This document shows positions 1 to 64,000 of a stretch of DNA of 64,000 bases, in pieces. The notes under the pieces are model-generated. The model did not search any database, had not been told where the DNA came from, and was given only the letters and a program-made list of their open reading frames with translations. Source of the DNA: Tychonema sp. LEGE 07203 (GTDB taxonomy: Bacteria; Cyanobacteriota; Cyanobacteriia; Cyanobacteriales; Microcoleaceae); the NCBI RefSeq assembly GCF_015207285.1, contig NZ_JADEXD010000003.1:1-64000 (forward strand). Direction: 5' to 3'. Numbering within the stretch: the stretch's first letter is position 1; the number at the start of each line of letters is the position of its first letter. Made by a program: the position numbers and the translations under genes.

Positions 1-540
1 GTTTTGCCCGATCGCCCCGGATGCGTCTGAGGTCGGTTTGGGAGAAACTTGGAGGTTTTGGGCGATCGTCCCCGCTCCGTCCTGTTTCCGAGGCTCTACT
101 GCGACCCAGGCGGGCGTTACTGCCACTTCTGAAGGGGGGAGCTGGCTGTCTGGTTGTACCTCTTGCAGCGCGTTTTGACTGCTAGGGGCGGGGGATGGGT
201 TGGATGCTAGCTCGGGTTTGAGTTGAAAACCTGCGGGCAAAACCGGGTCTGGCGGGTCTGTGACTCGGTTTGGCGGTTCGCGGTCGTCTTCTCCTCTGGC
301 AGGGGCCGCCACTATTTTTAGGGCTTCGGCTTTGCTGCTTTTAGCTGCAAAGCGGTTTTGAGGAGGATTTTGGGTTAATTCTGGAACCGCGCCGGGTAAT
401 TCGATCGACGGGGCCGGGGGAACCGCAGCCAAACTGTCCTCTGCTGATTCAGAGTAGGATGTTTGGCCGCTGGCCGAATTTGATAATCCGAATGTTGCTG
501 AGACAGTAAGAACTGCCACCAATACAGCAGATAAGCGCAT
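1..540 (-). CDS. Secreted outer-membrane protein N-terminus, probable BamA/Omp85 (partial)
   Basis: The reading frame starts at the ATG at 540 and stays open to the window edge (180 codons, no stop). The first ~25 residues form a signal peptide: basic start MRLS, a hydrophobic stretch (AVLVAVLTVSATFG) and an Ala/Ser-rich exit. A low-complexity region rich in Pro, Ala, Ser and Gln follows. In many cyanobacteria the gene after purC encodes the Omp85/BamA outer-membrane assembly factor, whose N-terminus is a signal peptide plus a Pro-rich stretch before the POTRA domains. Gene order and composition fit that, but no POTRA or barrel sequence lies inside the window, so the name is inference. An overlapping frame at 375-581 is a shadow. 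Confidence 0.6.
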   Translation of the reverse strand, partial: MRLSAVLVAVLTVSATFGLSNSASGQTSYSESAEDSLAAVPPAPSIELPGAVPELTQNPPQNRFAAKSSKAEALKIVAAPARGEDDREPPNRVTDPPDPVLPAGFQLKPELASNPSPAPSSQNALQEVQPDSQLPPSEVAVTPAWVAVEPRKQDGAGTIAQNLQVSPKPTSDASGAIGQN

Positions 541-13253: not shown

Positions 13254-13260
13254 AGGGAGC

Positions 13261-18876: not shown

Positions 18877-18941
18877 AGAAACCGGGTTTCTGCGAATCAT
18901 TTGGGTTGAGTACGAAAAATATAGGAAGAAACCCGGTTTCT
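18877..18941. repeat. Palindromic-repeat element copy between fmt and sbcD
   Basis: AGAAACCGGGTTTCT (18877-18891) and AGAAACCCGGTTTCT (18927-18941) are inverted around a 35-bp spacer. In the convergent gap it may act as a transcription terminator. Confidence 0.75.
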
Positions 18942-18981
18942 GAGATTGTGTGGTAAGGAGAATTTACCTGCCGAATATTAC

Positions 18982-21460: not shown

Positions 21461-22732
21461 ACAAATTTCCAGAAATCGCGCGTGCCAAAGTTTGCCGCTT
21501 TCCGTCAATCCCTGCGATCGCACTTTAATTTTAACTCCGCGAGGGTTAGCCTCGTAGAGTCGGGCAATTTCCTGCATTTCCCCGCTGCTAAAGCCCGTTC
21601 CCACTGTTCCTATCCGCAGTAATTTGCCCGCAACTTCTTGCGCGACTTCGATCGCACTAAAGGGCCGCCCCGCAACTTTAGTCGGTGTCAACCCGACAAT
21701 CAACAACTCGTATTCCTGACAGTATTTAGTCCGCACCATCGGAAACTTCTTAACATCTTTCCCGCCGACATAACAGCAGTTGTGCAAAATCCAAACTTCG
21801 CCTTCTCTGTTTTCAGATTCCTGCTGATTTGCTAATAAAAGTTTTTCCGACTCCGTGCGATAAGTCGGTATAATTTCAAATTCTGAAGATAAACTTACCA
21901 GCAATTCACCAACAGCAACCCCGGCGGCAATTCGTTCGGATTCAGCCAGCCCAGTCAAGTCTTTGCCGCGGGAAAACAAACATTTGAAAATCGCATAAAC
22001 TGCGGTTGGCTGAACGGTTGGAAAACCGCTTTCAATATTAACTGTAGCAGCTTGTGCGCCCGTGCGGTGTTCGCTGCCGCTACAGCTTTTGTAATACAGT
22101 TCGCCGTCTAAAACAAAGATGCCAATTTTAGCTGCAGTGTCTGTTAATGCGCGATCGATCGCAATTGATGCTTGTTGTCGCAGGTTAGTCGATCGCGATT
22201 GATAGTATACTTTATCTGGTGTCGCCACAACCACAACTCGGTTGCCGTCCCGCTTTGGCTGTCCCCAATAATCGGGATTTTCGATGTAATAAGAACGTTC
22301 CACCGGCGCATCAACCGGCTGCATCGTCACAATCCTTCCCGGCTGCAAATTCGCAGGTAATTCAGAAACAATCGGATTGTTTGCAGTCTCTATTTTGGCA
22401 GCAGCCTTTGATTTTGCCGCCGGAGTACCATTAGTGGTAGACTTGCTTTGGGTGTTTTCAGTCGGCTTTTCTCCAGTTTCCAACTCAAACGCTCTTTTCC
22501 AAAATCCCACCGCCATTTCCGGGTATCCTTCCGACTCCGCACACAGCGCAAAACCAATAACTTTTGCCGTACCGATGCCGCGCCCGTAATCAGCTAAATA
22601 CTGCACCGCCCCCGCTTCACTCATCAAGTGCAATTCCCGCTGAACAATGCGATTGTTCCAGCGTTCTCGAATATCGGCGCTAATTTTTTTAGCTGCTTTT
22701 CGCTTTGCTTCGGCGTATTCGGTGCAGTCCAT
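21458..22732 (-). CDS. ATP-dependent DNA ligase-like protein
   Basis: A 424-aa nucleotidyltransferase. The adenylation Lys is in motif I GQPKRDGNRVVVV (K-x-D-G). Motif III-like FVLDGELYYKS, motif IV REGEVWILH, motif V-like RTKYCQEYELLIVG and a C-terminal OB-type segment ending WHARFLEI follow, the order of ATP-dependent ligases. Residues 1-90 are an unassigned helical domain rich in charged residues, joined by a Ser/Thr/Ala/Lys linker (NTQSKSTTNGTPAAKSKAAA). The start at 22732 is chosen because AAAAAGGAGG precedes it and a strong promoter lies just upstream; the upstream frame would start inside the -35 box. Role probably DNA repair. It has no Ku or polymerase partner here. Confidence 0.78.
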   Translation of the reverse strand: MDCTEYAEAKRKAAKKISADIRERWNNRIVQRELHLMSEAGAVQYLADYGRGIGTAKVIGFALCAESEGYPEMAVGFWKRAFELETGEKPTENTQSKSTTNGTPAAKSKAAAKIETANNPIVSELPANLQPGRIVTMQPVDAPVERSYYIENPDYWGQPKRDGNRVVVVATPDKVYYQSRSTNLRQQASIAIDRALTDTAAKIGIFVLDGELYYKSCSGSEHRTGAQAATVNIESGFPTVQPTAVYAIFKCLFSRGKDLTGLAESERIAAGVAVGELLVSLSSEFEIIPTYRTESEKLLLANQQESENREGEVWILHNCCYVGGKDVKKFPMVRTKYCQEYELLIVGLTPTKVAGRPFSAIEVAQEVAGKLLRIGTVGTGFSSGEMQEIARLYEANPRGVKIKVRSQGLTESGKLWHARFLEIC

Positions 22733-22763
22733 ACTGCCTCCTTTTTGTAGGGCTACTTCATAT

Positions 22764-22792
22764 ACTATACTAAAGCTTGATTTATTAGTCAA
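22764..22792 (-). promoter_or_regulatory. Sigma70-type promoter of the ligase gene
   Basis: On the minus strand TTGACT (22792-22787) and TATAGT (22769-22764) are separated by 17 bp. The Shine-Dalgarno AAAAAGGAGG and the ATG at 22732 follow at normal distances. Confidence 0.7.
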
Positions 22793-37366: not shown

Positions 37367-37576
37367 AATTTTCTCTTTGTTTAAACAAAACTGTGTGTTT
37401 CGACACTTGGTCTATGTGTTTGCTATGTTGGTGACACAATCAAAATTAGACTTAAAATTGGAAATTTGCGATCGAGAGCTAGCGTTAGGAATTGTCAGCA
37501 TTGGGGTGCGATCGACTCTTTTTTAGCTAAAATCTCCATTTTTAACTCGAATTTAAGTCTAGATCGAGGCAAACCT

Positions 37577-40500
37577 ATGAATGCTCAACGTGCTGTGCGA
37601 TCGATTCTGACAGCAATTCCCCTGGCTGGATTTTTGATATTAGATTTTTTGCCCAACCTGGTTTTCCTCAAAGAAAACAGCAGGGGATGGGCGATTGTAG
37701 CAATTTATCCCCAATCTCAAATTGCTGCAGCACAGTCGATCGTTCCAGCAGCAGAGGGCACCGGCACCGCCATCGCCCCAAAACCGGGAGCTCGCTACGA
37801 CATTACAGGCGGCACAGCCTCGCGAGACGGAGCAAATCTGTTCCACAGTTTTACTCGATTCGGCTTGAATTCTGGCGAAACTGCCAATTTTCTCTCCAAC
37901 CCAGCCATTAAAAATATCCTCGGCCGCGTTGTCGGCGGCGACGCTTCGTTAATTAACGGTTTAATTCAAGTTAGCGGCGGCAATTCTAACTTGTACCTGA
38001 TGAACCCCGCAGGGATTATTTTCGGAACCAATGCCCGACTCGACGTGTCCGGGTCTTTTTTTGCTACCACCGCTAGCGGTATCGGTTTTGACAGCGGCTG
38101 GTTCAACGGTACGGGGGCGAACGACTACGCGGCCCTCGTCGGAGAGCCTAATACTTTTGCTTTTGGCGCGCAGTCGGGGAGTATTGTCAATGCCGGCGAT
38201 TTGGCTGTCGGAAGCAGGCAAAATTTGACTTTGCTGGGCGGTACTGTCATCAGTACCGGGAAACTTTCAGCCCCCGGCGGTCAAATTACTGTGGCGGCCG
38301 TCCCTGGCGAAAATCGCGTGCGGTTGAGTCAAAACGGACTTTTGCTGAGTTTAGAATTTACTCCGGGTGCGGGAGTGTCGGGTGCGAAAACTTTGCCTTT
38401 TTCTCCCCTGAGTTTGCCTCGACTGCTTTCGGGCCCCGGCGTTGCTGAGGCTACGGGTATAAGTACGAACGATCGCGGTGAAGTCGTGCTGACGGGCGGC
38501 CAAACAGTGCCTGCAATGGCTGGAACTGCGCTGGTATCGGGTGCTGCGGACGTGTCTGCTGGGGGGGGCGCGGGAGGCAGTATCAGCGTGTTGGGCGACA
38601 AGGTAGGGCTGTTGGGAGCGAAGATTGATGCTTCGGGGGCCGACGGCGGCGGAACGGTGCGGATCGGCGGAGATTACCGGGGCGAGGGAACTGTGCCGAA
38701 TGCGATGATGACTTATGTGGATGGCAAAAGTTCGATCGCCACCAACGCCACAGACTCCGGTAACGGCGGCAGAGTTTTTGTCTGGGCGGACAACACTGCA
38801 GCATTTTTGGGCAGCATCAGCGCGACGGGCGTTTCTCCAACTGGCGGCAGCGGCGGTACCGGCGGGTTTGTGGAAGTTTCGGGCAAGCAAAGATTGATTT
38901 TTGACGGTAAAGTCGATACTTCCGGCACAAATGGTTTGGGGACTTTGCTGCTAGATCCGGAGAATATTTTAATTACAGATTCCGAAGCAGCGGCGGGTGA
39001 TGCGGAAATTATTGCTAACAATAATATTTTGGCAGGAACTCCACCGGGACAGTTAAATAATTCCGATGCTTCGCTGACAATTTCTACCAGAGCTTTGGAA
39101 AGTCTGTCTGGGACGGCAAATGTGGTTCTGGAAGCGCTCAACGATATTAAAATTGCTGATTTGGACGGTAAGTTGAGCTTTGCGGCCACTACTGGTTCGG
39201 TGACTTTCACGGCAGATGCCGATCGCAGCGGTGCGGGTGCTTTTTCGATGAATCCTAGAGATACAATTAGCACGGCGGGCGGCGCGATCGCCATTTCCGG
39301 CAGTCAAATTACGGCGGGCAATTTGTCGAGCAACGGCGGAAATATTAGTTTGATAAGTCCGGGAACAACGGTTGCTAACAATATTTCGGCATCTGATTCT
39401 AGCAGCGGTACTAGCGGCAATATTGTGCTGGAAGGCCAAAACGTCACAGTCGAAAAAATTGATGCTAGCGGCTCTAAATCGGCGGCAAATGTAACTTTGA
39501 CGGCTAGGAACGTTCTGGGAGTGAGCTTCGTCGCAGGGGGTTCTGGAAACATTACTTTGACTGGTAATGAAATTAATTTGACTGGTGGCAATAATTCGAT
39601 CGGCGGTACTGGCTTTTTGGTAATGCAGCCTTGGAATCCCGGTCAAAATATTGCGATCGGCGGTTCTGGAGATGTCGGTACTAATATTTATTTGAATCTG
39701 ACAGCAAAGGACCTCGGAAGTTTGCAAAATGGGTTTGCTGGAATTACGATCGGCCGCAGCAACGGTAGCGGTGCGATTTTGATTGCTAACGATTTTACAT
39801 TTTATGACCCGCTAATTATTCAGTCGCCGGCGGGTTTGGGAACAATCACTACCACAAGTTCCCTGACAGGGGCAGACGATGCCTCAATTAATCTCAAAGC
39901 TGACGGCAATATCCGCATCGGAAATATCACTACTAACAATCAAGAAATTCGCATCGCCAGCACGACGGGGAATGTGACAACCGCTCAGCTACGCACGGGA
40001 AGTGGGCCCAGCATCAGCACTTCTGTCAATTCTTCCAAGCTGCCGCGCACGTCGGCTGGTGATGTGAGCGTTACGGCAGAGGGTACGGTGACTGCAGGCT
40101 CGATCGACACTAAGGGCGATATAGGGGGTAACGTGACGCTGACGGGCGCTGCGGGAGTGACAGCAGGGGCGATCGAAGCTGGCGGTTCCCATACAGGGGG
40201 AAATATTACTCTGACAGGTAATGAAATTGATTTGACGGGCGGTAAGAATTCGATCGCCAGCAACGGCAATTTGGTGCTGCAACCGTCCGATCCGGCTCAG
40301 AATATTACTATTGCCGGTGCTGCTGAGACTGAGGCTTTGGACTTGACTGCTGCAAAATTGAACTCGCTGCGGAACGGCTTTGCTTCCGTAGCGATCGGCC
40401 GTGCTGACGGTAGCGGCACGATCGCTATTGTTCCGCCCACAACAGCACCAAATTCAACAAATTCTACACCAGTCCCAGCGGTGACATTTCAAGACTCGAC

Positions 40501-42715
40501 GACGATCCGATCGCCTTTTGGCACCGGCGCGATCGCGGGAATGGGTGCGATCGCCGGTACTGATAACGCCACAATTTCTCTGATCGCAGGTACTGTCGCT
40601 GTCGGAGACGTTACCTCGAATGGGGGGATTAATATCACTAGCAGTCAGGGTAGCTTAACTGCTGGTGTTGTTTCATCTCGATCGGCGAACGGGGCGGGGG
40701 GCGATATCAACATCCGCAGCGCCGGTGGGGTAGCAGCGGGCAATGTCAATGCTTTCGGTGCCAAAAACGGCGGCAATATCTCGATCGCCGCGCCGGGCCA
40801 GATCGTGACGGGGGCACTCAATTCGAGTTCGGAGTCGGGAAGTGCCGGCTCGATCGAGATTAACGGGCAAAAAGATGTTGAAGTTGCTTCGATCAAAGCT
40901 CGCGGCAATACCGGCGGCGATGTCGCAATCGATGCGGGAGGAGTGTTTCGGGCGGCGGGAACTGGAACGGCTGCCGATCGCCCATCGAGCGTTAGCATTT
41001 CTACAGACGGGCAGGTGCGATCGGGTTCGCTGACTTTGCTGCAAAGCAGTTGCCGCTCGGGAAACTGCAAGGCGGCGACTGTGGCGGCGGGAAACTCGAA
41101 GCCGACGACTGTCGAATCGTCAACTGCGACACCGCTGGCGATCGAGCCTCCTCCGGCAGCAACTACCACTGTGGAACTGAAAACTACAGGCACTTCTCAA
41201 CAAATTGTCCTTCAGACACCCTCCGCGTCTGCGCCCAAGAGCAGTACCGCAAATGTCTCGCCAGAACCTGCTGCTGCGCCTGTGGAGGTGCTGCCGAACG
41301 AAACCGATTCCCCCTCCCCATCCTCCTCTGTACTGCTGTTGTCGCGGGTGTTAAATGCCGATGGGGCCGCGCCTGCGGCAACAGAAAACGGCAGCGCGGC
41401 GACAGCACAGAAGCCCGCGAGTGGTGGAAATATAGAAAGTATCGGAAATGTGAGGGTTCCTGAGATTTCTCGATCGAGTGCGATGCAAATAAGTCCGATC
41501 GACTCTGTGCAGCAAAGGGATAAAATTCAGGGCCAGGAATTTGAACGTTATTTTGGTGGCAATCTCGCTCAAAAGTCGGTCACGCCGCAAAGTATCCGAG
41601 ATACTCTCAGCAGTGTCGATCGCTTGACAGGGGTTAAGCCGGCGATTGTTTATGTGTGGGCGAAAGAGCAACATTTAGAACTTGTGTTATTCTTGCCCGA
41701 CGGCAAAAGTGTTTTTAAAACCGTGTCTGTAAGCCGCGAGACTGTGTTGGAAGTTGCCAAAGAATTCACTAATGCTGTGAGAGCTCCTAGGAGATTGAAT
41801 GCTGCTGATTATAAGGCACCAGCCCAGAAACTTTATCAGTGGTTAATTGCACCGCTGCAACCGGAATTGCAGGCGAACAAAATTAACACCTTGGTGTTTT
41901 CGATGGATGCCGGTTTGCGAACTTTGCCTTTGGCTGCTCTTTTTGACGGCAAACAGTTTTTGGTAGAAAAGTACAGTTTGGGGCTGATTCCGAGTTTGAG
42001 TTTGACTGATACTCGCTATGCCGATGTTAAAGGTTCGGAAGTTTTGGCGATGGGTGCGTCGAAATTTCCGGCAAAATACGATCAAAATCCTCTGCCTGCG
42101 GTGCCGCTGGAAATATCGACAATTGTGGGCAAGATTTGGCCCGGTTCGTCTTTTCTCAATGAAGCTTTTACTCTGGGAAATTTGAAGGATAAGCGCAATC
42201 AACCGCAATACAAAATTATTCATTTAGCTACTCACGGCGATTTTCAGCCTGGGGGTGCCGAAAATTCTTACATTCAGTTTTGGGATACTAAGTTGCGGTT
42301 GAATCAGTTGAATCAGTTGAAGTTATCTAACCCGCAGGTGGAGTTGTTGGTTTTGAGTGCGTGCACTACGGCGGTGGGTGACGAACAGGCTGAGTTGGGG
42401 TTTGCGGGGTTGGCGGTGCACGCTGGGGTAAAATCTGCTCTGGCGAGTTTGTGGTATGTGTCAGATGCGGGTACTTTGGGGCTGATGACTGAGTTTTACC
42501 AGCAGTTACGCACCGCGCCGATTAAGGCTGAGGCTTTGCGTCAAGCGCAGTTGGCGATGCTGCGGGGTGAAGTGCGGTTGCAAGACGGTTATTTGGTGCG
42601 ATCGGGCAACAATCAAGCTCTGCCTTTGCCGTCGGAGTTGGCCGCCAGGGGCGATCGAAATTTGTCGCATCCCTATTATTGGGCTGCTTTTACCATGATC
42701 GGTTCGCCTTGGTAG
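37577..42715 (+). CDS. TPS-domain (filamentous hemagglutinin-like) protein with C-terminal CHAT protease
   Basis: A 1712-aa exported protein. It starts with a hydrophobic signal (AVRSILTAIPLAGFLILDFL), then a two-partner-secretion carbohydrate-binding domain (about 71-300) with NLFHSF, SNPAIKNILGRVVGG, NPAGIIFG and VSGSF. A beta-helix-type Gly/Asn/Ser-rich body follows, containing two related ~170-residue repeats (starting near 655 and 870 with GNITLTGNEI(N/D)LTGG). After a Ser/Pro/Ala linker comes a CHAT caspase-like protease (about 1355-1712) with His1553 in IHLATHGDF and Cys1596 in LVLSACTTA. A TTG-initiated extension to 37466 is unlikely, since the signal would be displaced. No TpsB transporter lies nearby. 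Confidence 0.92.
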   Translation: MNAQRAVRSILTAIPLAGFLILDFLPNLVFLKENSRGWAIVAIYPQSQIAAAQSIVPAAEGTGTAIAPKPGARYDITGGTASRDGANLFHSFTRFGLNSGETANFLSNPAIKNILGRVVGGDASLINGLIQVSGGNSNLYLMNPAGIIFGTNARLDVSGSFFATTASGIGFDSGWFNGTGANDYAALVGEPNTFAFGAQSGSIVNAGDLAVGSRQNLTLLGGTVISTGKLSAPGGQITVAAVPGENRVRLSQNGLLLSLEFTPGAGVSGAKTLPFSPLSLPRLLSGPGVAEATGISTNDRGEVVLTGGQTVPAMAGTALVSGAADVSAGGGAGGSISVLGDKVGLLGAKIDASGADGGGTVRIGGDYRGEGTVPNAMMTYVDGKSSIATNATDSGNGGRVFVWADNTAAFLGSISATGVSPTGGSGGTGGFVEVSGKQRLIFDGKVDTSGTNGLGTLLLDPENILITDSEAAAGDAEIIANNNILAGTPPGQLNNSDASLTISTRALESLSGTANVVLEALNDIKIADLDGKLSFAATTGSVTFTADADRSGAGAFSMNPRDTISTAGGAIAISGSQITAGNLSSNGGNISLISPGTTVANNISASDSSSGTSGNIVLEGQNVTVEKIDASGSKSAANVTLTARNVLGVSFVAGGSGNITLTGNEINLTGGNNSIGGTGFLVMQPWNPGQNIAIGGSGDVGTNIYLNLTAKDLGSLQNGFAGITIGRSNGSGAILIANDFTFYDPLIIQSPAGLGTITTTSSLTGADDASINLKADGNIRIGNITTNNQEIRIASTTGNVTTAQLRTGSGPSISTSVNSSKLPRTSAGDVSVTAEGTVTAGSIDTKGDIGGNVTLTGAAGVTAGAIEAGGSHTGGNITLTGNEIDLTGGKNSIASNGNLVLQPSDPAQNITIAGAAETEALDLTAAKLNSLRNGFASVAIGRADGSGTIAIVPPTTAPNSTNSTPVPAVTFQDSTTIRSPFGTGAIAGMGAIAGTDNATISLIAGTVAVGDVTSNGGINITSSQGSLTAGVVSSRSANGAGGDINIRSAGGVAAGNVNAFGAKNGGNISIAAPGQIVTGALNSSSESGSAGSIEINGQKDVEVASIKARGNTGGDVAIDAGGVFRAAGTGTAADRPSSVSISTDGQVRSGSLTLLQSSCRSGNCKAATVAAGNSKPTTVESSTATPLAIEPPPAATTTVELKTTGTSQQIVLQTPSASAPKSSTANVSPEPAAAPVEVLPNETDSPSPSSSVLLLSRVLNADGAAPAATENGSAATAQKPASGGNIESIGNVRVPEISRSSAMQISPIDSVQQRDKIQGQEFERYFGGNLAQKSVTPQSIRDTLSSVDRLTGVKPAIVYVWAKEQHLELVLFLPDGKSVFKTVSVSRETVLEVAKEFTNAVRAPRRLNAADYKAPAQKLYQWLIAPLQPELQANKINTLVFSMDAGLRTLPLAALFDGKQFLVEKYSLGLIPSLSLTDTRYADVKGSEVLAMGASKFPAKYDQNPLPAVPLEISTIVGKIWPGSSFLNEAFTLGNLKDKRNQPQYKIIHLATHGDFQPGGAENSYIQFWDTKLRLNQLNQLKLSNPQVELLVLSACTTAVGDEQAELGFAGLAVHAGVKSALASLWYVSDAGTLGLMTEFYQQLRTAPIKAEALRQAQLAMLRGEVRLQDGYLVRSGNNQALPLPSELAARGDRNLSHPYYWAAFTMIGSPW

Positions 42716-52476: not shown

Positions 52477-55400
52477 CTAAAGAGTTATCACATCTAGAAA
52501 GCGCTTAATTTGTTTTTCCCAAGTCCAATCTAGCATGAAATTGGCTGCAGCTAAACCGCGATTTTTTGCTTCTGTGCGATTAGTATAAACTTGCTCCAAA
52601 GCATCAATAACTTCTGCAACATCCGACTCTCCCCAACCTTCTACACCGGGAAAATGAGCTGTCGGTTTAACTCGTCCCTGATGCGATAAAGGATAGCAAA
52701 TATTGCTGTAAATCAAGTCTAAATGACCAGTATTTGCTGATAAAATAGTCGGAATTCCGCAGGCCATACTTTCCATTGCGACTAAATTAGTGCCGCCTTC
52801 GCAACGGTTGGTGAAAACAGCGCAGTCGGCTTCTCGCAAAATTTGTCCTGAGAGGTGATTGGGTATTAAGCCAATGTCGATAAAAGATTCAACTGGTAAA
52901 CCGTTGGCTGCTAACCATTGGGAAATTCCTAAACTTCCGTCGCGGTTGATATTAGGAAATCCCGCAACGTTTCCGGTTTGTTCCATTCCCAGCATATATT
53001 GAGGCCAAAAGTTGTGCCACGCTGTTAGTAACAGTGCTTCTGGATGTTTGGCGCGAAATTGTTTGAAAGCGGCAATTACAATGTCTTGGCCTTTGCGATA
53101 TTCTAGTTTGCCGCCGGAGAAAATGACGAAGCGATCGCCAAATAGATTAGATTTGGGTGCAGGATGGAAAATTGTCGGGTCAATTCCTTGATTTACCATC
53201 GCCACATTTGTTAAGCCGCAGCTTCGCAAAACATCGGCATTCCAGTTAGAACCGGCGACAATTACGCTATATTTTTTGGCTTTTTCTAGTGCTTCTGCTG
53301 TGATTCGCGTGTCTTCAAAAAAGATGACTCCTACTTGACAAGCGCTGGTAATTTGATTCTCAACTCCAGACGAAACTAAATTATTTCCTAAACCGTAAAG
53401 TACGGGAAAGTTGCAAGCAATTTGTTTGTCATAATTCGCGGTTACTAATTGTTGAAAATCTTTCTGCTTTTCTATTAGGGGTAATAACAGCGATTTGTGC
53501 AGCGGATTGAGCGATTCTGAGCTGATGGATGGCGGTGCTAAAAGTGCTACTTCCCAGGCGGGATTTCGCAGCAGTTGCAGTGTTAAATTGATGCCGTAAA
53601 TTCCCCAGCCGCTGGTGATGCTGAGCGGCCAACTGATGCCGATTCCTGTTGTTTTTGGCGGGGTTTCTGGTGGGAGATTTTGAGGAATTAGCAGGGGCGG
53701 TGTGTTGGTTTCCTGCCCTTGGGAAGTATAAATTAGCTGTTCTAGGGCTGCTTTTACTCGATCGCCCACGCCATCCCAATCACCCGGTTTTTCCTGGCGA
53801 AACAACCGCACAGTAGGATACCAAGGACTATCTTCGCGATCGAGCATCCACCGCCAGTCGGCCACAAAAGACAGCAAAATCCACACCGGTTTGCCCAACG
53901 CCCCGGCTAAATGCGCCACAGCAGTATCGACGCAAATTACTAAATCCAGTTGGGAAATAATCGCTGCCGTCTCAGCAAAATCAATGCAATGTTTGCTCAA
54001 ATCTTGAACTTGCTGTTGATTTAATAAAGCGTAATCCTTCGCTGGCAAATCTTTTTGCAGGCTGTAAAAACTCGCTCCCGGAACATCTAAAAACCTTGCA
54101 AAATTGCTCAACTTACACGAGCGATCGTTGTTTTTGCGGTGCAGCGGGCCGCCCGCCCACACAATACCTACTTTTAGTTTATTGTTCGGCTCTAAGAAAA
54201 ATTTACCATCCTCTGGCGGAGCTAAATAAGGAATATTTACAGGTATATTTTCCAAAGTTGTTCCCAGAATTCTGGGCAAACTCATTAGCGGCGCTTGTAC
54301 TTGAAAATCCACCATATCTTGCGGCTTTGTTACTACAAGATCGATGCCGGCAACTTTTTCAAACAAACGCTTCAGCGACTGATGACAAGCCACAATAACT
54401 TTGCCACCTTTTTGCTTAACTAAAGGTGCGTACCGGATAAAATGAATGGTGTCGCCCAAACCTTGTTCGGGGTGCAACAATATTGTTTTTTCCTGCAAAT
54501 CGGAACCGTCCCAAAGCGGTTGCTCAAAATATCTGGGTTCCAATTCTTTCGTTTGCCAGCGCGATTCGTACTCGGCAAAACCGCGCTCAAAATTTCCCGT
54601 TAAGAGCAAAGCTAAGGCTAGTCTCAAACGCCAATTTGGTGATTCGGGACATAGTTGAATTGCTTTATTGTAGAATTCGATCGCCTCTGCGACTTTTCCC
54701 TGTTCTTCGAGGGCACAACCCAAGTATAAGTTCGTTTCGCTGAGATTGGGATTAATTTTTAGGGCTTGCTTGTAGTGGAAAATAGCCTCGGCTATTTGCC
54801 CGTTTTCCTGTTTGAAATAACCTAAATAACTGTGGGCTCCTGCGTGGTTTGGCGAGGCGACAATTACCTGTTCGTAGCGATCGGCTGCTTCTGCTTGTTT
54901 CCCTTGTTTTCGCAAGGCATTTGCTATGTGAAAATCGACATCAATTGCTGTCAGTTTTTGGGCAGATCCGAGACTGGGCGATGGCGATGTTTCCCTCACA
55001 CTCAAGGATTTTGTTAACTCTTGCAAAGCTATTTTTACCCGATCGCACACTTCCTCCCAATCGCCCGGTTTTTGCTGCCGAAACAACCGCGCCGTCGGAT
55101 ACCAAGGGCTGTCTTCGCGCTGCAACATCCACCGCCAATCCGGCGCAAAACACAGCAAAATCCATACCGGTTTGCCCAAAGCACCGGCTAAGTGAGCGAC
55201 AGCAGTATCGACGCAAATTACTAAATCCAGTTGCGATACCACCGCCGCAGTATCGGCAAAATCGTTCAAATTGTCGCTCAAATCGATCGCGGAAGTTTGA
55301 CTTAACAAAGTAAGATCGCCCGCCGATAATTTTTTCTGAAGACTGTAAAAAGTTACGCCCGGAATATCTAACAATTTCAGAAAATAGCTTAAATCACTCG

Positions 55401-58400
55401 ATCGCACAAAATCCTTCAAATGTTCCGAACTTCCCGCCCACACAATCCCCACTTTCAAATTGCGATTCCCTACGGGATAGCTGCGCTTCACGGAGTTTAG
55501 GGAAAATTGCCAATTCGGCGGCGCTGCTAAATAAGGAACATTTGCCGGTATATTTTCTAAATTTGTTCCCAGAATGTGCGGCAAACTCATCAGCGGTGCT
55601 TGCACTTGAAAATCGGACAATTCGTCCATCCGCACCGCCACTTGTTCGATGCCAGGAATCTGCTTGAATAAACGCTGGAGTTCTTGATAGCAAGAAAGGA
55701 TTACTTTGCCGCCTTTTTGCTGCACAATTGTTGCGTAGCGCACAAACTGAATTGCGTCGCCCAAACCTTGTTCGCAGCGAATCAAAATAGTTTTGCCGTG
55801 CAAATCTGAACCGTCCCAAATCGGCCGATCGAAATTCAACCACTGCGTTTTTTTTGCCCCATCGGTTTGCCAGCGCCATTCGTACTCGGCAAAACCGCGA
55901 AGCAAGTCACCTGTTAACAGCAGCGCTAAGGATAAATTGAAGTGAGCTTTAGCACAATTTTCATCTAAATTAATAGCTCGATTGTAACATGAAATTGCCC
56001 GCTCAACCTCGTTCTTGGCTTCTAAAACCGTGCCTAAATTGTTGAGCGCTTCTACGTGATTTGGCTGCAAAGATATTGCAGTTTCTAAACTCACCAAAGC
56101 TAGTTCGTATTGGCGTGTTTCTAAGAATAAATTTCCCAAGTGATAATGCCCTGTCGCGCTGTCAGGTTCTATCTCAATTGACAGACAATAAAGACGTTTA
56201 GCTTCTTCTAGCTGATTTGTTGCTTGCATGGCCGCGCCCAAATTTACGATGGCCGGCACGTAATTGGCATTGATGGAAAGTGCTTGATTAAAACAGGCGA
56301 TCGCACTTGACAACTCGCCCTGCTGCTGGAGTATCGCGCCGAGATTGTTGAGGGCTTTGACGTAAAGGGGATTTAGGGCGATCGCCTTTTGGAAACAAGA
56401 TATAGCATCGTCTATACGGCCCTGAGTTTGCAGAAAAATACCAAAGTTATTTTGGGATAGAGCGCAGTTTGGGTCGATTTCGATCGCGCGCTGATAATAT
56501 GTTGCAGCCCCTGTTAAATCGCCTGTTTGGTGCAGCGTCACCGCTAAATTTGTGGCTACTTCGATCGAATTCGGGCAGCTAACTAAAGCATTTTCAAAAC
56601 ACGTAATCGCCTCAATAAATTTTCCTTGCGACTTCAGCAGATTTCCCAGATCGAACTGTTGCTTAGCCAAGTCAATATTTAGCTGAATTTCTATTACTCC
56701 TCGTTCTTCCTGATGGTGAGCAATTCTTTCTCGGAGCGCCAAACCAACCGCTTCTAAAACTCCTTCCCAATCTTGTGCTGTTGACTGCCGAAACAAGCGC
56801 GCCGTCGGATACCAAGGGCTATCTTCCCGTTCCAACATCCACCGCCAATCCGGCACAAAACACAGCAAAATCCACAGGGGTTTGCCCAAAGCACCGGCCA
56901 AGTGCGCCACAGAAGTATCCACCGAAATTACTAAATCAAGAGCAGATATTGCGGCTGCTGTATCGGCAAAGTCGTGCAAATAAGAGCTTAAATCTGTCAC
57001 AGGCATTTGCTCTAACAAAGCGCGTTCTTCTGCTGTCATTTCCTTTTGCAAACTGTAAAAATCTGCTCCGGGAATATCTAATATTTTGGCTAACAAATTG
57101 AGCGAAAACGATCGCACTTTATTTTGTGAATTGTTAGTATTGCCGCACCAGACAATCCCTACTTTCAAATTAGCAGTTTGTCTCAAAGTAAATTCCCCGC
57201 CGGGAGGCGGAGCTAAATAAGGAACCTGGGCGGGTATAGTTTCTAAGGTTGTTCCCAGGAGGTGCGGCAAACTCATGAGGTGCGCGCGAACTTGAAAATC
57301 CGGCGCTGCTTCTGGACTAATTATTAACTGATCGATTCCCGCAACTCGTGCAAACAACCGCTGCAAGTGCGGCAAACACCAAACAATTACCCGACCGCCT
57401 TTTTGCTTGACTAATTCTGCGTAGCGGATAAATTGAATTGCATCGCCCAAACCCTGTTCCGGGCAAAGCAAAATTGTTTTTCCCTCCAAATCTTTGCCGT
57501 CCCAAATCGGTTGGAGAAAGTTGTATTGCGGGAACTGTTTTTTTTCAACTACCAGCCGCGATTCGTACTCTGCAAAACCGCGCTGAAAATCTCCCGCCAG
57601 CAGCAATGCTAAAGCTAAATTTAGGTGAGATTCGGGGTTGGCAATATTGAATTCAACTGCTCGATCGTAATAGGTGACAGCATCGGCAAATTGTCCGCCT
57701 TGGTGCAGAATGTTTCCCAAACCGTTGAGAGAATTGACGTAACCGGGTTTGAGTTCGATCGCCCGATTGTAACAATCCATCGCCTCCGTCATTTTTCCCG
57801 CTTCCTCAAAAGCTTTAGCGAGATTGTTCAAAGCTTCGGGAAAGTCGGGTTTCAGGCTCAAAGCTTGCTGATAGCAGGCGATCGCATCTTGAATTTTACC
57901 TTGTTTGTGCAGGACAATTGCCAGATTGCAGCGAGCGCCCGCACTGGCTGGATATTTTTGAATCGCTTGCTGGCAAAAGGCTAGAGCCTCATCTAACCGA
58001 TCTTGGTTTGACAGCCAATTCCCAAAAGCCAGATCGGTTGCTGCCAAATCGGGTTCCAGCGCCAGAGCTCGTTCGTAATAGGCGATCGCATCTGCAACTC
58101 GGCCCTGCCGGATCGAGGCGTATGCTAAGTTGTGCAAAGCGTCGAAATAATTGGGATCGAGCTCGATCGCCCTTTCGTAATTCGCGATCGCGCGATCGTA
58201 ATCCGCGCCCGCTTCCTCCCCTTGTTTCTCCAAAGCAATGCCCAAATTCAAATAAGCCGCCGCGCAATCAGGATTGACTTGAATCGCTTGCTGGTAAAGC
58301 TTTACAGCCTCATTCACATTCCCTTCTTCTTCCCGCAGCAGCCCCAAATTAATCATCGCTTCGGCGCAATTCGGGTTCAAAGACAGCGCCCGCTGGTATT

Positions 58401-61400
58401 GTGCGATCGCCTCTGCTGTCTCCCCTGCTTCCGCCAGGGCGCTGCCCAAATTGCTCGCAGTTTCCGCCAAATTCCCATCGATTTCTAGCGCTTTTTTGTA
58501 GTGCGCGATCGCCTCCGTCAAGCGCCCGCTTTGCTGTTTGACAACGCCTAAATTGTTGTGCGCCGCCGCGTAATCGGGATCGATCCGTAGCGCCCGCTCG
58601 TAACATTCGATCGCACCGCCAAAATTGCGCTGCACCTGCAAATCTCTGCCAGAGCGAAACTCTGCATCCGCCGCCGGCGCAGGTGCAGCCTCAACCAGAC
58701 GGCACAGAGATTGCACCACCCGATCGAAAACGCCCTCCCAGTCGCCCCTGCTGGGCTGGCGAAACAGCCGCGCCGTCGGATACCAAGGACTGTCTTCGCG
58801 CTCCAGCAGCCACCGCCAATCCGGCGAAAATGCCAGCAAAATCCACACCGGTTTGCCCAAAGCGCCCGCCAAATGGGCGACAGCGGTATCGACGCAAATT
58901 ACTAAATCCAATTCGGCGATCGCAGCAGCAGTATCGGCCAAATCCCCCAAATGCCGGCTCAAATCGACGATTGGAGTTCGATCCAACAGCGCGCGATCGG
59001 CCTGGGAAACCTCTTTCTGCAAGCTGTAAAAACTTACCCCCGAAACGTCCAAAAGCGGCAGAAACTGACTTAAACTGCAAGAACGCTGCATATTTTTGCG
59101 GTGTTTGGGATTCCCCGCCCAAACAATCCCAACTTTCAAATTGCGATCGGGCAAAAGCCCAAATTCAGCACCCGCAATCCCAGATAAATAAGCAGTATTT
59201 GCCGGAATTGTTTCCAGCGTTGTACCCAGAACATAGGGCAAACTCAACATCGGCACTTGCACGTCAAATTCCGGCAGCGGCTCGCCTCTAACTATTAGCA
59301 AATCAATCCCGTCAACCGTTGCAAACAAACGTTGCAATTGCGGGTAACAGCCAACAATTACCCTACCGCCTTTATTTTTGACAATCGCAGCGTAGCGCAC
59401 AAACTGAATCGAATCGCCCAAACCTTGTTCGGCGTGAAGCAAAATAGTCTTTCCATGCAAATTGGAACCATCCCACAGCGGCCGGTATTCTCTCGCAGCC
59501 ACTGTATTTTCCGGCCCAGTCATAAAACAGGAATGACCGATTTTAAATTCATTAATTTTCCAGCGCCACTCGTATTCGGCGAGACCATTTTCCAAATCTC
59601 CCGCCAACAGCAAAGCCAAGGACAAATTGAGGTGAGCGCTAGCATGATCTGGACTCAAAACAATCGCCCGTTTGTAGCAGGCGATCGCCTCTTCTACCGC
59701 GCCTTTTTCCAGAAAAGTCCTGCCTAAATTGTTAATAGCTTCCACAAAATCCGGCAGCAATTCTAGAGCTTTGTGATAATATTCTAGGGCATCTTCTAAA
59801 TTGCCTTGTTCTTGCAAAACTGTTGCCAGATTGTTGTAAGCTTCCCAACTGTGCGGGTTAATTTCCAGCGCCCGCCGGTAGAGGTTAACAGCCTCTAAAA
59901 GTTTGCCTTTTTCTTGCAGCGCCACCGCTAAATTTATCAGTGCGGGTACGAAATTCGGTTCGGCGGCAAGAGCTTGTTCGTAATGTGCGATCGCCTCTGC
60001 GACTTGACCTTTTTCCTCAAAAATTTTTGCCAAATTGTAAGCTGTTTGAGGAATATCTGGAGCCAGGGCTAAAGCTTCTCGGTAATGCGGAATAGCTGCA
60101 TCTAACTCGCCATTTTCTTGTTTGAGAAAACCATAATTAATCCGGGCTTGCACGCAATTTGGATCGAGAAATATGATTTGTTCGTAAAGGGCGATCGCCT
60201 CTTGCTTGTCGCCTGTTTCCATCAACTTTTCGGCTTGCTGCAACATATCCTCTAAAACAACCGAATTTTCCCCATTAGCCGCCCTAGTAATAGATGTTTC
60301 AATTGGCGGCATTTGCTCGATTGCTACGCGGTTGGCCAGCGCTTCGCCCGCTGTCAAAAATATTTTTTGGCTATCCTCAACCAAGCTAGCATTTGTCATT
60401 TCCAGCGCTGCAGCACCGACTGTCTTTGCGATGGACAAATTTTTAGTATTATCCTCGGAATAAGTAGCAGAATTGGCGATCGCCAACAAACTCAAAGCCG
60501 CCCGCACATCCTGAAACAATTCTTGCCAACTTTCCGGCTGACTTTGGCGGAAAAGCCTAGCAGTTGGATACCAAGGATTGTCTTCGCGATCCAGCAGCCA
60601 GCGCCAGTCAGGAGCAAAAGAAAGCAGCACCCAAACCGGTTTTCCCAAAGCACCCGCCAAGTGCGCCACAGAAGTATCGACACTAATCACCAAATCCAGT
60701 TGAGATATAGCAGAAGCCGTATCAGCAAAGTCGTTCAGGTGCGGGCTCAAATCCGGCACCAAGTGGTGGTTGAGCAAAGTGCGATCGCTCTCGGACAAGT
60801 TTTTTTGTAAACTATAAAAAGCAATTCCCGCCACATCAAAAAACGGAATAAAATCGCTCAAACTGCAAGAGCGCTGATTGTCTTTCCGCCTGGTTGGATT
60901 CCCCGCCCACACAATCCCCACCTTAAATTTTGCATCAGAAGCCAGCGCAAATTTGCACTCAGCAGGCGGAGCTAAATAAGGAACATTTGCCGGGATTGTT
61001 TCCAGAGTTGTCCCCAAAATTCTGGGCAAACTCATCAGCGGTGCGTGAAAGTCAAATACTGGTAAACCCTCAAAACTAACTGATAAATATTCAATGCCGG
61101 CAACAGTCGCAAACAACCGCATCAGTTCCCGATAGCAAGCCACCATAACTTTAGCACCTCGGCTGCGAAGAATCGGCGCGTAGCGAATAAACTGAATCGA
61201 ATCGCCCAAGCCTTGTTCGACGTGCAGTAAAATAGTTTTAGAATCCAAATCCGAACCATCCCAAAGCGGCTGTTGAAATTGCCTCGGTTGTAGTTGCGGA
61301 GTGCGCCACCGCCACTCGTATTCAGCAAAACCGCGCTGATAATCTCCGAACAACAGCAAAGTTAAACTAAATTCGAGGTGTGCGGTGGCGTTGTCGGGCT

Positions 61401-62250
61401 GCAATTCCAAGGCTCGACGGTGACAATAAAAAGCCTCTTGAAAATTTCCTAAATCCACCAATGCGTGTCCGAGGTTGTTAATAGCATCCACGAAGTCGGG
61501 CTTGAAGCTTAATGCTTGTCGGTAGTGGTCTATGGCTGCTTGAGGATTGCCTTGTTCGTGGTAAAATGCTCCGATATTGTTTTGCGCGTCGGGATTTTTG
61601 GGTTCTATTTCTACAGCTTGCTGGTAGCAGTTGAAAGCTGCGGCTAATTTACCTTGCTGCTGCAAAACTCGGCCCAATCCTAGCAGAGAATATGTCAATT
61701 TAGGATTTATTTGTAAAGCGTGCAAATAACAGGCTGCTGCTGCGTTTAGTTCATTTTTTTCTGTAAAAATTTTTCCTAAATTGTGGGCGGCTTCAACCAG
61801 GTTTGGGTCGAGTTTGAGCGCTGCTTGGTAATATACAATTGCCGCGTCTGTTTCTCCTAATTGCTGTTTGAGCCAGCCCAATTTATTGCAGGCGAGTGCG
61901 GAATTTGGCTGTATTTTGATAACTTGTTCGTAACTAACGATCGCCCTTTGATATTCGCCGACATCCAGCAAAACATGGGCCTTGTTTAAATGTGCTTCTA
62001 CAAAATCTGGGTTTTGGGCGATCGCGCGATCGTAAAAATCGATCGCCTCAGCAACTTTTCCCTGCTGTCTCAGCGCTATTCCCAACAAACAAAGCACGTT
62101 TGCTGAATCCGGCTCGACTTCTACGATTTGCCGGTACAAATTTTCAGCTTCTAACAAACGCCCAGCTTGGTGATTTTCCCAAGCTCTTTTCAAACAGTCT
62201 TCAGCACTCTGTTTAACGGCCAATTTTTGCGATTTTTTTTGAGAAGCCAT
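52477..62250 (-). CDS. Giant TPR protein with five GT9-like modules and C-terminal GT4 glycosyltransferase
   Basis: A 3257-aa protein in one frame (9.8 kb). It repeats a module of several TPR units followed by a GT-B/GT9-like (heptosyltransferase-like) domain: approximate GT positions 335-580, 930-1175, 1585-1830, 2145-2395 and 2580-2830. Each begins FAEYEWRW...PLWDGSDL, contains LHxEQGLGDSIQFIRYA, then VGIVWAGNPxxxK and (S/A)VAHLAGALGKPVWILL with DWRWxLxREDSPWYPT. TPRs lie at ~15-320, 665-910, 1205-1565, 1860-2125 and 2440-2560. Residues ~2860-3257 form a GT4-type glycosyltransferase (GGKLEYRKGQDIVIAAFKQF, NRCEGGTNLVAMESMACGIP with E-x7-E). No signal peptide. Modules are diverged, not recent copies. 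Confidence 0.92.
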   Translation of the reverse strand: MASQKKSQKLAVKQSAEDCLKRAWENHQAGRLLEAENLYRQIVEVEPDSANVLCLLGIALRQQGKVAEAIDFYDRAIAQNPDFVEAHLNKAHVLLDVGEYQRAIVSYEQVIKIQPNSALACNKLGWLKQQLGETDAAIVYYQAALKLDPNLVEAAHNLGKIFTEKNELNAAAACYLHALQINPKLTYSLLGLGRVLQQQGKLAAAFNCYQQAVEIEPKNPDAQNNIGAFYHEQGNPQAAIDHYRQALSFKPDFVDAINNLGHALVDLGNFQEAFYCHRRALELQPDNATAHLEFSLTLLLFGDYQRGFAEYEWRWRTPQLQPRQFQQPLWDGSDLDSKTILLHVEQGLGDSIQFIRYAPILRSRGAKVMVACYRELMRLFATVAGIEYLSVSFEGLPVFDFHAPLMSLPRILGTTLETIPANVPYLAPPAECKFALASDAKFKVGIVWAGNPTRRKDNQRSCSLSDFIPFFDVAGIAFYSLQKNLSESDRTLLNHHLVPDLSPHLNDFADTASAISQLDLVISVDTSVAHLAGALGKPVWVLLSFAPDWRWLLDREDNPWYPTARLFRQSQPESWQELFQDVRAALSLLAIANSATYSEDNTKNLSIAKTVGAAALEMTNASLVEDSQKIFLTAGEALANRVAIEQMPPIETSITRAANGENSVVLEDMLQQAEKLMETGDKQEAIALYEQIIFLDPNCVQARINYGFLKQENGELDAAIPHYREALALAPDIPQTAYNLAKIFEEKGQVAEAIAHYEQALAAEPNFVPALINLAVALQEKGKLLEAVNLYRRALEINPHSWEAYNNLATVLQEQGNLEDALEYYHKALELLPDFVEAINNLGRTFLEKGAVEEAIACYKRAIVLSPDHASAHLNLSLALLLAGDLENGLAEYEWRWKINEFKIGHSCFMTGPENTVAAREYRPLWDGSNLHGKTILLHAEQGLGDSIQFVRYAAIVKNKGGRVIVGCYPQLQRLFATVDGIDLLIVRGEPLPEFDVQVPMLSLPYVLGTTLETIPANTAYLSGIAGAEFGLLPDRNLKVGIVWAGNPKHRKNMQRSCSLSQFLPLLDVSGVSFYSLQKEVSQADRALLDRTPIVDLSRHLGDLADTAAAIAELDLVICVDTAVAHLAGALGKPVWILLAFSPDWRWLLEREDSPWYPTARLFRQPSRGDWEGVFDRVVQSLCRLVEAAPAPAADAEFRSGRDLQVQRNFGGAIECYERALRIDPDYAAAHNNLGVVKQQSGRLTEAIAHYKKALEIDGNLAETASNLGSALAEAGETAEAIAQYQRALSLNPNCAEAMINLGLLREEEGNVNEAVKLYQQAIQVNPDCAAAYLNLGIALEKQGEEAGADYDRAIANYERAIELDPNYFDALHNLAYASIRQGRVADAIAYYERALALEPDLAATDLAFGNWLSNQDRLDEALAFCQQAIQKYPASAGARCNLAIVLHKQGKIQDAIACYQQALSLKPDFPEALNNLAKAFEEAGKMTEAMDCYNRAIELKPGYVNSLNGLGNILHQGGQFADAVTYYDRAVEFNIANPESHLNLALALLLAGDFQRGFAEYESRLVVEKKQFPQYNFLQPIWDGKDLEGKTILLCPEQGLGDAIQFIRYAELVKQKGGRVIVWCLPHLQRLFARVAGIDQLIISPEAAPDFQVRAHLMSLPHLLGTTLETIPAQVPYLAPPPGGEFTLRQTANLKVGIVWCGNTNNSQNKVRSFSLNLLAKILDIPGADFYSLQKEMTAEERALLEQMPVTDLSSYLHDFADTAAAISALDLVISVDTSVAHLAGALGKPLWILLCFVPDWRWMLEREDSPWYPTARLFRQSTAQDWEGVLEAVGLALRERIAHHQEERGVIEIQLNIDLAKQQFDLGNLLKSQGKFIEAITCFENALVSCPNSIEVATNLAVTLHQTGDLTGAATYYQRAIEIDPNCALSQNNFGIFLQTQGRIDDAISCFQKAIALNPLYVKALNNLGAILQQQGELSSAIACFNQALSINANYVPAIVNLGAAMQATNQLEEAKRLYCLSIEIEPDSATGHYHLGNLFLETRQYELALVSLETAISLQPNHVEALNNLGTVLEAKNEVERAISCYNRAINLDENCAKAHFNLSLALLLTGDLLRGFAEYEWRWQTDGAKKTQWLNFDRPIWDGSDLHGKTILIRCEQGLGDAIQFVRYATIVQQKGGKVILSCYQELQRLFKQIPGIEQVAVRMDELSDFQVQAPLMSLPHILGTNLENIPANVPYLAAPPNWQFSLNSVKRSYPVGNRNLKVGIVWAGSSEHLKDFVRSSDLSYFLKLLDIPGVTFYSLQKKLSAGDLTLLSQTSAIDLSDNLNDFADTAAVVSQLDLVICVDTAVAHLAGALGKPVWILLCFAPDWRWMLQREDSPWYPTARLFRQQKPGDWEEVCDRVKIALQELTKSLSVRETSPSPSLGSAQKLTAIDVDFHIANALRKQGKQAEAADRYEQVIVASPNHAGAHSYLGYFKQENGQIAEAIFHYKQALKINPNLSETNLYLGCALEEQGKVAEAIEFYNKAIQLCPESPNWRLRLALALLLTGNFERGFAEYESRWQTKELEPRYFEQPLWDGSDLQEKTILLHPEQGLGDTIHFIRYAPLVKQKGGKVIVACHQSLKRLFEKVAGIDLVVTKPQDMVDFQVQAPLMSLPRILGTTLENIPVNIPYLAPPEDGKFFLEPNNKLKVGIVWAGGPLHRKNNDRSCKLSNFARFLDVPGASFYSLQKDLPAKDYALLNQQQVQDLSKHCIDFAETAAIISQLDLVICVDTAVAHLAGALGKPVWILLSFVADWRWMLDREDSPWYPTVRLFRQEKPGDWDGVGDRVKAALEQLIYTSQGQETNTPPLLIPQNLPPETPPKTTGIGISWPLSITSGWGIYGINLTLQLLRNPAWEVALLAPPSISSESLNPLHKSLLLPLIEKQKDFQQLVTANYDKQIACNFPVLYGLGNNLVSSGVENQITSACQVGVIFFEDTRITAEALEKAKKYSVIVAGSNWNADVLRSCGLTNVAMVNQGIDPTIFHPAPKSNLFGDRFVIFSGGKLEYRKGQDIVIAAFKQFRAKHPEALLLTAWHNFWPQYMLGMEQTGNVAGFPNINRDGSLGISQWLAANGLPVESFIDIGLIPNHLSGQILREADCAVFTNRCEGGTNLVAMESMACGIPTILSANTGHLDLIYSNICYPLSHQGRVKPTAHFPGVEGWGESDVAEVIDALEQVYTNRTEAKNRGLAAANFMLDWTWEKQIKRFLDVITL

Positions 62251-63595: not shown

Positions 63596-63741
63596 TTGCC
63601 AGTTCTCAGTTGTCAGTTGTTACTAACAACAAATAACAAATAACAAATAACAAGTAACTACTGACTGAGGACTAATGACTAATGACTACTGACTGAGGAC
63701 TAATGACTAATGACTAATGACTAATGACTAATGACTAATGA
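63596..63741. repeat. Mixed heptanucleotide arrays
   Basis: CAGTTGTCAGTTGT, (AACAAAT)n and (TAATGAC)n units, the last being the reverse complement of the array at 48561. They occupy the space between the two tocopherol-pathway genes. Confidence 0.93.
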
Positions 63742-63742
63742 T

Positions 63743-64000
63743 TTATTTTACAGCACAAATCAGTCCGAAACGAATCAATCCGCTCTGATATCCCCGGCTC
63801 ATCAATCCGAGAGCAAGTGCAGCTTGAATCGTCGTCCAACCGCTCGTCAGCAAACCCCAAATCGCGCTCGGAGTCAAAGCAGAATCGATCACCACATCCC
63901 AAAAAGGAGCAACTGCTTTTGACCAATCAGCGCTGCGAATACTTGTAAAAGGCAAACTGCGGACAATTTCCTCATATTCCGGTAAAGAAATCACGTAAGG
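63743..64000 (-). CDS. Methyltransferase C-terminus, probable gamma-tocopherol methyltransferase (partial)
   Basis: The frame is open from the window edge to TAA at 63743-63745 (85 residues). The segment IRSADWSKAVAPFWDVVIDS followed by ALGLMSRGYQSGLIRFGLIC resembles the C-terminal end of cyanobacterial tocopherol O-methyltransferases (Slr0089-type), which end GWKTI...GLIKFA-type. The SAM-binding domain is outside the window. Position directly upstream of homogentisate phytyltransferase on the same strand supports a tocopherol-pathway role. An apparent GTG at 63994 is internal. Family assignment from memory of the C-terminus only. Confidence 0.65.
   Translation of the reverse strand, partial: PYVISLPEYEEIVRSLPFTSIRSADWSKAVAPFWDVVIDSALTPSAIWGLLTSGWTTIQAALALGLMSRGYQSGLIRFGLICAVK

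Follow-up and report, generated by a model that had tools for sequence, protein, structure and literature searches.

A conserved polymodular TPR-glycosyltransferase of GT9-like fold and its probable role as a cytosolic array for protein O-glycosylation

Introduction

Why would one cyanobacterial gene join five glycosyltransferase units and a sixth, different one in a single chain? The window analysed here, a stretch of 64,000 nucleotides from Tychonema sp. LEGE 07203, contains such a gene. An initial annotation, made from the letters and their translations alone, described its product as five blocks of tetratricopeptide repeats (TPRs), each leading into half of a GT-B fold, with a GT4 domain at the C-terminus. 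It proposed either an assembly line that adds several sugars or a scaffold acting on one polymeric or glycoprotein substrate. Single-module enzymes of this kind are known, and the polymodular form is widespread in sequence data; we found no description of polymodular TPR-glycosyltransferases in the open-licence PMC literature, which is weak evidence of absence. Here we examine whether the chain is genuine, what its modules are and which mode of action best fits them.

Results

Five TPR-glycosyltransferase units and a GT4 domain share one frame

The gene is one unbroken frame with an ATG start in the open reading frame list of the window, and its product consists of five repetitions of a TPR block and a GT-B module followed by an 11-aa linker and the GT4 domain (Table 1). 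Motif searches located EQGLGD at aa 345, 941, 1598, 2160 and 2595 and VAHLAGALGKP at aa 528, 1124, 1781, 2351 and 2778. Successive EQGLGD sites are 1788, 1971, 1686 and 1305 bp apart, which agrees with the 1.8, 2.0, 1.7 and 1.3 kb first estimated. TPR families reach very high Pfam scores over the protein. All five modules just pass Pfam GT9 (PF01075), with 22.8-30.1 bits against a cut-off of 22 and over only about 33 aa, and at E <= 1e-3 GT9 alone was reported for them. Together with the structural model described below, the motifs and Pfam matches confirm the order of five TPR and GT-B blocks and a distinct GT4 domain.

Table 1. Features of the polymodular gene and its convergent neighbour (positions in the window)
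Feature	Position	Strand	Remarks
Convergent downstream neighbour, 1109 aa	48835..52164	+	Pfam: Methyltransf_24, TPR-like stretch, CmcI-type and TylF-type methyltransferases
Whole gene	52477..62250	-	3257 aa; same architecture in 22/22 same-genus orthologues
TPR block 1 (aa 1-287)	61390..62250	-	Pfam TPR; boundary from our own HMM of the five modules
GT module 1 (aa 288-598)	60457..61389	-	Putative catalytic Asp350, Asp525, His530
TPR block 2 (aa 599-869)	59644..60456	-	Pfam TPR; module HMM
GT module 2 (aa 870-1194)	58669..59643	-	Putative catalytic Asp946
TPR block 3 (aa 1195-1538)	57637..58668	-	Pfam TPR; module HMM
GT module 3 (aa 1539-1851)	56698..57636	-	Putative catalytic Asp1603; residues at 198, 226 and 338 of the model differ in a fixed way
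TPR block 4 (aa 1852-2099)	55954..56697	-	Pfam TPR; module HMM
GT module 4 (aa 2100-2421)	54988..55953	-	Putative catalytic Asp2165; residues at 226 and 338 of the model differ in a fixed way
TPR block 5 (aa 2422-2537), shortest of the five	54640..54987	-	Pfam TPR; module HMM
GT module 5 (aa 2538-2848)	53707..54639	-	Putative catalytic Asp2600
Linker (aa 2849-2859)	53674..53706	-	8-92 aa across species
C-terminal GT4 (aa 2860-3257)	52480..53673	-	PF00534 44.3 bits (cut-off 26.4); fold nearest HepE; E-x8-E at aa 3151-3160

The GT4 domain had been credited with an E-x7-E motif. The actual motif is EGGTNLVAME, an E-x8-E in which both Glu residues are conserved in an alignment covering 23 of 27 loci, and the sole literal E-x7-E after aa 2950, at aa 3219, lies in another part of the domain. 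We count the E-x8-E as a variant of the E-x7-E motif.

The chain is conserved in the genus

A search with module 5 and the GT4 domain found a match in 41 of 59 relatives, including 27 of the 28 from the same genus; the sole same-genus relative without a match in this search was G009. Orthologues were retrieved from 22 of the 27 matching relatives, the other five (G002, G003, G006, G015 and G024) having shorter frames only. Five modules and the GT4 domain were present in all 22, two of which come from single-contig genomes (G019 and G021). The 21 orthologues not clipped by a contig end are 3109-3356 aa in length; in L052 the contig ends inside module 1. Interrupted orthologue frames, attributable to decay or sequencing error, were seen in draft or metagenome assemblies at L079, L086, L087 and L089. 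Within the window's own genome, a module search found no GT module on any other contig, and no second GT4 copy was found at E <= 1e-8.

An assembly or repeat error that expanded or collapsed a shorter gene was a concern of the initial annotation. The direct repeats within the gene, up to 300 bp long with 69-77% identity, and the broken frames of some drafts would be in keeping with such an error. However, the copies are too divergent to collapse, modules 2-5 being only 56-60% identical to module 1 at the amino acid level, and the same architecture recurs in every retrieved orthologue, single-contig genomes included. We therefore rejected an artefact, for which the remaining chance is negligible.

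The modules resemble GT9 heptosyltransferases in fold

The model of the first TPR block and module 1 (pLDDT 96.6, pTM 0.93) shows a small but complete GT-B domain, with both lobes, on a TPR superhelix, and the earlier description of a GT-B half is corrected accordingly. The nearest structures to the GT part were 3tov (Z 19.2 over 244 aa, 2.6 A), 1psw (heptosyltransferase II, Z 18.0) and WaaC 2h1f (Z 17.2). Foldseek searches with the whole model returned SPINDLY and OGT as top matches, and also 8qoy, presumably a multi-domain bacterial glycosyltransferase. When modules 1 and 5 were scanned with TIGR02193 (LPS heptosyltransferase I), they scored 25.9 and 23.2 bits, far short of the equivalog cut-off of 185.3. 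A sequence search of solved structures gave no match for the five modules or for GT4; with a 79-row alignment, the 60 matches listed align by the TPR part and are uninformative about the GT part. The Pfam GT9 matches in all five modules and the GT9 identity of the nearest structures support predicted glycosyltransferase folds of the GT9 kind, against the initial caution that the blocks might not be glycosyltransferases at all.

The best structural match of the GT4 domain was HepE (Z 30.7 over 332 aa, 3.2 A, 14% identity), with BshA and PimA also among the top matches. The model joining GT module 5 to GT4 had a pTM of 0.50, and its domain orientation was left uninterpreted.

In the alignment to WaaC 2h1f, model residues 221..473 lie on WaaC 1..320, and D233, the Asp of EQGLGD, falls on Asp13 if the alignment is ungapped there. 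Asp13 of HepI is the proposed catalytic base, and the D13A and D261A substitutions cut activity 4688- and 2027-fold (PMC5713226). By motif register and structure ranges, the putative equivalents of Asp13 and Asp261 are D233 and D408 in 114/114 genus modules. D408, which belongs to the DT..H motif, is our proposed counterpart of Asp261; that R343 corresponds to HepI Lys192 is a guess from motif order. None of the 114 genus modules departs from D233, D408, R343, H413 or W432-R433-W434, and in the wider family these are kept in 79, 77, 78, 79 and 79, respectively, of 79 modules. The family alignment comprises 78 of 88 non-redundant modules, prefiltered as near-complete strong matches, and this invariance therefore covers intact modules. 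The initial annotation proposed a check of donor-binding residues in each module; the putative catalytic residues are conserved in all five modules of the window's gene.

The modules are old and separately maintained

The relationships among modules and their homologues were examined in trees drawn with midpoint roots. In a 134-module tree, obtained by a quick search, the modules group by position into five separate clades, each spanning 22 or 23 same-genus sequences (SH-aLRT 99 or 100). In a 99-module tree, the 15 modules from three genus representatives form one clade (100/99). The five copies therefore date, by origin or by their last homogenisation, from the ancestor of the genus, and they have stayed distinct since.

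Selection was estimated for 12 of the 23 sequences (12 species, 66 pairs) by the simple Nei-Gojobori method. The dN/dS values for modules 1-5 were 0.155, 0.183, 0.248, 0.195 and 0.210, and every module is under purifying selection. The strongest constraint was on GT4 (0.152), and the linker evolves nearly freely (0.918). Values for the TPR blocks ranged from 0.205 to 0.335, with each GT module tighter than the TPR block preceding it.

Among the 114 genus modules, only nine aligned columns show one residue throughout a given position in the chain and another elsewhere; module 2 has, besides, a fixed insertion of four residues. The residues in modules 1-5 are W/W/L/W/W at model position 198, H/H/C/R/H at position 226, shortly before EQGLGD, and R/R/S/L/R at position 338, in the loop ahead of R343; positions 226 and 338 vary across the wider family. 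Since residues 226 and 338 are fixed next to putative active-site motifs, the specificity of modules 3 and 4 may not be that of modules 1, 2 and 5. As far as sequence comparison can indicate, the fixed differences do not amount to evidence for five different sugars. The divergence between modules had been taken as a sign of specialised, maintained functions. The positional clades and dN/dS values bear out the maintenance, but with so few position-specific changes the case for specialisation is weaker.

Module number varies among relatives

Of 291 genomes sampled from the class, 102 carry TPR-GT modules, with at most seven candidates scored per genome; the contig scan of relatives covered the best 80 matches. 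Chains that end in GT4 have one module in FACHB-471, two in FACHB-1515, three in Pantanalinema, Leptolyngbya ULC077 and M33_DOE_052, four in Laspinema D2a, five in Microcoleus, Trichodesmium and G142 (a genome of another family), six in G063 and seven in G076. Chains without GT4 contain up to six modules (Hormoscilla). Multi-module forms are thus common in cyanobacteria and in some other bacteria, and five modules are not exceptional, contrary to the initial view that TPR-GT proteins normally have one catalytic domain. The seven-module gene of G076 (L150/L151) is a 4169-aa frame, bigger than the window's gene, and adjoins a second gene with four modules. A different order is seen in G039 (L073), where a reversed gene at 8569-12096 encodes GT4 first and then TPR-GT and is convergent with an RTX gene at 12218-19900.

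In two Laspinema genomes the gene lies between UbiA and HemD homologues as it does in Microcoleus, with four modules in one and three in the other. The trees place modules 1, 2, 4 and 5 of Trichodesmium as near-copies of one another, unlike those of Microcoleus, and its five-module chain may represent either a separate lengthening or homogenisation. The first two modules of Pantanalinema, Leptolyngbya and two relatives fall in one clade, and their module 3 falls in another, with the last modules of other genera. On these trees, the cyanobacterial chains of 1 to 7 modules plus GT4 lengthened more than once or were homogenised.

Neighbouring genes

A UbiA prenyltransferase gene lies upstream on the same strand; 21 of 22 same-genus loci have it, and the remaining locus is clipped by its contig end. 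Upstream of the UbiA gene is a run of 7-bp repeats (ACTAATG and variants) at 63622-63753. Eighteen same-genus loci include DNA on the side of the convergent neighbour (Table 1), whose N-terminal region looks by eye like a GT-A glycosyltransferase, and 15 of them carry this gene. Its later domains vary, a CmcI-like domain being recognisable in 2 of the 15 and a TylF-like domain in 5. Intact Microcoleus copies range from 561 to 1118 aa and one copy is split, as if domains had been exchanged. In G142, homologues of its Methyltransf_24 (66% identity) and GT-A-like (55%) parts directly follow the five-module gene. Outside the genus, a GT2, GT-A or methyltransferase partner accompanies 15 of 47 multi-module ORFs at a distance of at most 5 kb, a count that becomes 14 of 41 by hand because five genes were counted twice and one was split over two loci; we treat this as a lead only. 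A role of the neighbour in glycan extension or methylation is plausible from these domains.

Three other ORFs of the window were noted for their domain content. A 1749-aa ORF at 37466-42715 (+) has a two-partner-secretion (TPS) domain and, at its C-terminus, a CHAT protease domain, and a 1798-aa ORF at 26899-32295 (+) unites a Ser/Thr kinase, an AAA ATPase, a GAF and a histidine-kinase ATPase domain. The third, 444 aa with a TTG start at 21458-22792 (-), has a weak ATP-dependent DNA ligase domain (33.7 bits vs 26).

Leads to the acceptor and the donor

Proximity to flagellin genes was examined at 21 of 24 non-cyanobacterial loci (L119, L137 and L143 were left out), and 19 of these 21 genomes have flagellin. 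A TPR-GT gene lies within 10 kb of a flagellin gene in nine of the 19, compared with 0.92 expected at random, an expectation that rests on hand-made locus counts. Three multi-module TPR-GT genes, each encoding about 2200 aa, are directly beside flagellin: in Geobacter at a distance of about 60 bp (L139:7193-13822), in a deltaproteobacterium at about 100 bp (L148:13397-20101) and in a member of the Geobacteraceae at about 220 bp (L125:9887-16504). FlmG of Caulobacter glycosylates flagellins in the cytosol and binds them via its TPR part (PMC7591256). From the flagellin neighbours and the parallel with FlmG, we infer that the acceptors of the TPR-GT family are surface or filament proteins. No surface-protein gene adjoins the window's gene. 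Flagellin itself provides no direct lead to the cyanobacterial acceptor and is not likely to be the acceptor here.

RTX proteins were considered as acceptors and dropped, as RTX domains occurred in 20/20 genomes tested and proximity was uninformative. The RTX gene beside the GT4-first gene of G039 encodes a calcium-binding protein of at least 2561 aa; close to the G063 chain (L153) there is a shorter RTX gene, of 550 aa.

No NeuB was found at E <= 1e-10 in the window's genome or in five other genomes of the genus, and we rejected a nonulosonic acid as the donor on that basis. Pseudaminic acid, the donor of FlmG, is likewise unlikely here because NeuB was not found in the genome. Among 15 cyanobacterial genomes, one had a weak partial NeuB match. 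Of the nine genomes with flagellin near a TPR-GT gene, four had strong matches (G343, G344, G346 and G348), three had weak partial ones and two had none.

Discussion

The gene encodes a real, conserved polymodular TPR-glycosyltransferase whose fold is GT9-like. It most likely acts in the cytosol as an array for protein O-glycosylation and probably attaches sugars at several sites along one long surface protein. We propose that each TPR superhelix would grip one stretch of a long, still unfolded surface protein and feed it to its own inverting GT9-type GT-B site, where the equivalent of HepI Asp13 would act as the base. Several Ser/Thr sites on one acceptor could thereby receive a first sugar. 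The C-terminal retaining GT4 would then add a different sugar, and the convergent glycosyltransferase/methyltransferase neighbour may add further residues and O-methylate them. The protein acceptor, O-linkage, sugar nature, inverting and retaining chemistry, parallel action and the neighbour's role are what we infer in this scheme. We give the whole scheme, a soluble array guided by TPRs with GT4 extending the glycan, about an even chance. The presence of the same residues in all five modules, together with a module number that varies at one locus, favors parallel action on many sites.

Two other modes of action have to be weighed against this array. The five modules and GT4 could work in order as an assembly line, building one oligosaccharide of up to six sugars with a donor and acceptor specificity for each step. 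This would suit modules that are positionally orthologous and old in the genus and that have fixed residues at positions 198, 226 and 338, of which the last two adjoin putative active-site motifs and differ in modules 3 and 4. It would also suit the chains of Pantanalinema, Leptolyngbya and two relatives, which mix two module types and have a distinct last module. Yet all five modules share one and the same family signature, chain length differs between close relatives at the same locus, and the modules at positions 1, 2, 4 and 5 in Trichodesmium are near-copies, so that we regard ordered action as rather unlikely. Of the alternatives raised initially, the glycoprotein half gains from the flagellin neighbours, while the assembly line loses ground to parallel action for the reasons just given. 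Alternatively, the chain could serve polysaccharide rather than protein, as a scaffolded complex of glycosyltransferases that makes an exopolysaccharide, a sheath or a lipopolysaccharide repeat and in which the TPRs bind partner enzymes. Folds of the GT9 and GT4 types are characteristic of enzymes that make envelope polysaccharides, HepE, the best structural match of GT4, is one of these enzymes, and the GT2, GT-A and methyltransferase genes near multi-module ORFs outside the genus point the same way. However, family members lie near flagellin in flagellated bacteria, the TPRs run straight into GT-B as in the protein glycosyltransferases OGT and SPINDLY, and the UbiA and HemD genes that flank the locus in the genus are no polysaccharide cluster. 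We consider a polysaccharide role unlikely.

It could also be that one or a few modules are catalytic and the rest mainly bind the acceptor or are structural copies. Multi-domain proteins with inactive domain copies have precedent, and module 3 evolves fastest of the five. With the putative catalytic residues kept in every genus module and purifying selection on each, this explanation is highly improbable.

If the array acts in parallel, the number of catalytic units of a glycosylation enzyme is written in one gene and varies among relatives, and counting modules becomes a way to test how bacteria control the number and positions of the glycans on their surface proteins. The flagellin-adjacent genes at L139, L148 and L125 are a promising place to relate module number to glycosites. 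Parallel action would also give glycoengineering a soluble system that needs no lipid and has one to seven linked sites, and it would open a way to the poorly characterised surface glycoproteins of gliding cyanobacteria. If the chain is an assembly line instead, it is unusually long for glycosyltransferases. A broader proposal, which we hold only tentatively, is that polymodular TPR-GT chains in cyanobacteria and some flagellated bacteria are multi-site protein glycosylation arrays in which several units, each gripping and glycosylating, work in register on one unfolded surface protein and the number of units sets the number or spacing of glycans, with chain length evolving repeatedly.

A close parallel in layout is FlmG of Caulobacter crescentus, which has the same N-terminal TPRs and C-terminal GT-B domain, a unit repeated five times here. 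FlmG is cytoplasmic, works without a lipid carrier, has one GT domain in 596 aa and uses pseudaminic acid (PMC7591256); the window's protein has five modules and a GT4, in a genome where NeuB was not found. The GT9 heptosyltransferases (WaaC/HepI, WaaF and 3tov) share the GT-B fold and have the GD and DT..H motifs at the same places, but the modules are fused to TPRs, score far below equivalog cut-offs and probably have a protein acceptor. OGT (GT41) and SPINDLY resemble the modules, by model and Foldseek, in a TPR superhelix that runs into a GT-B domain; they have one GT per chain, whereas the catalytic domain of the modules is smaller and repeated. The autotransporter heptosyltransferases TibC and BAHT are likewise GT-B enzymes and glycosylate proteins. 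Their catalytic base, an Asp, superposes on that of WaaC, and they form a dodecamer of single-GT subunits (PMC4358343); the available part of that source does not mention TPRs, which the modules have. HepE (Alr3699) of Anabaena, for all its structural likeness to the GT4 domain, is a stand-alone protein of low sequence identity to it. Capsule and O-antigen synthases carry several catalytic domains per chain, typically two or three different GT domains, and differ from the five repeated TPR-GT units of the protein described here.
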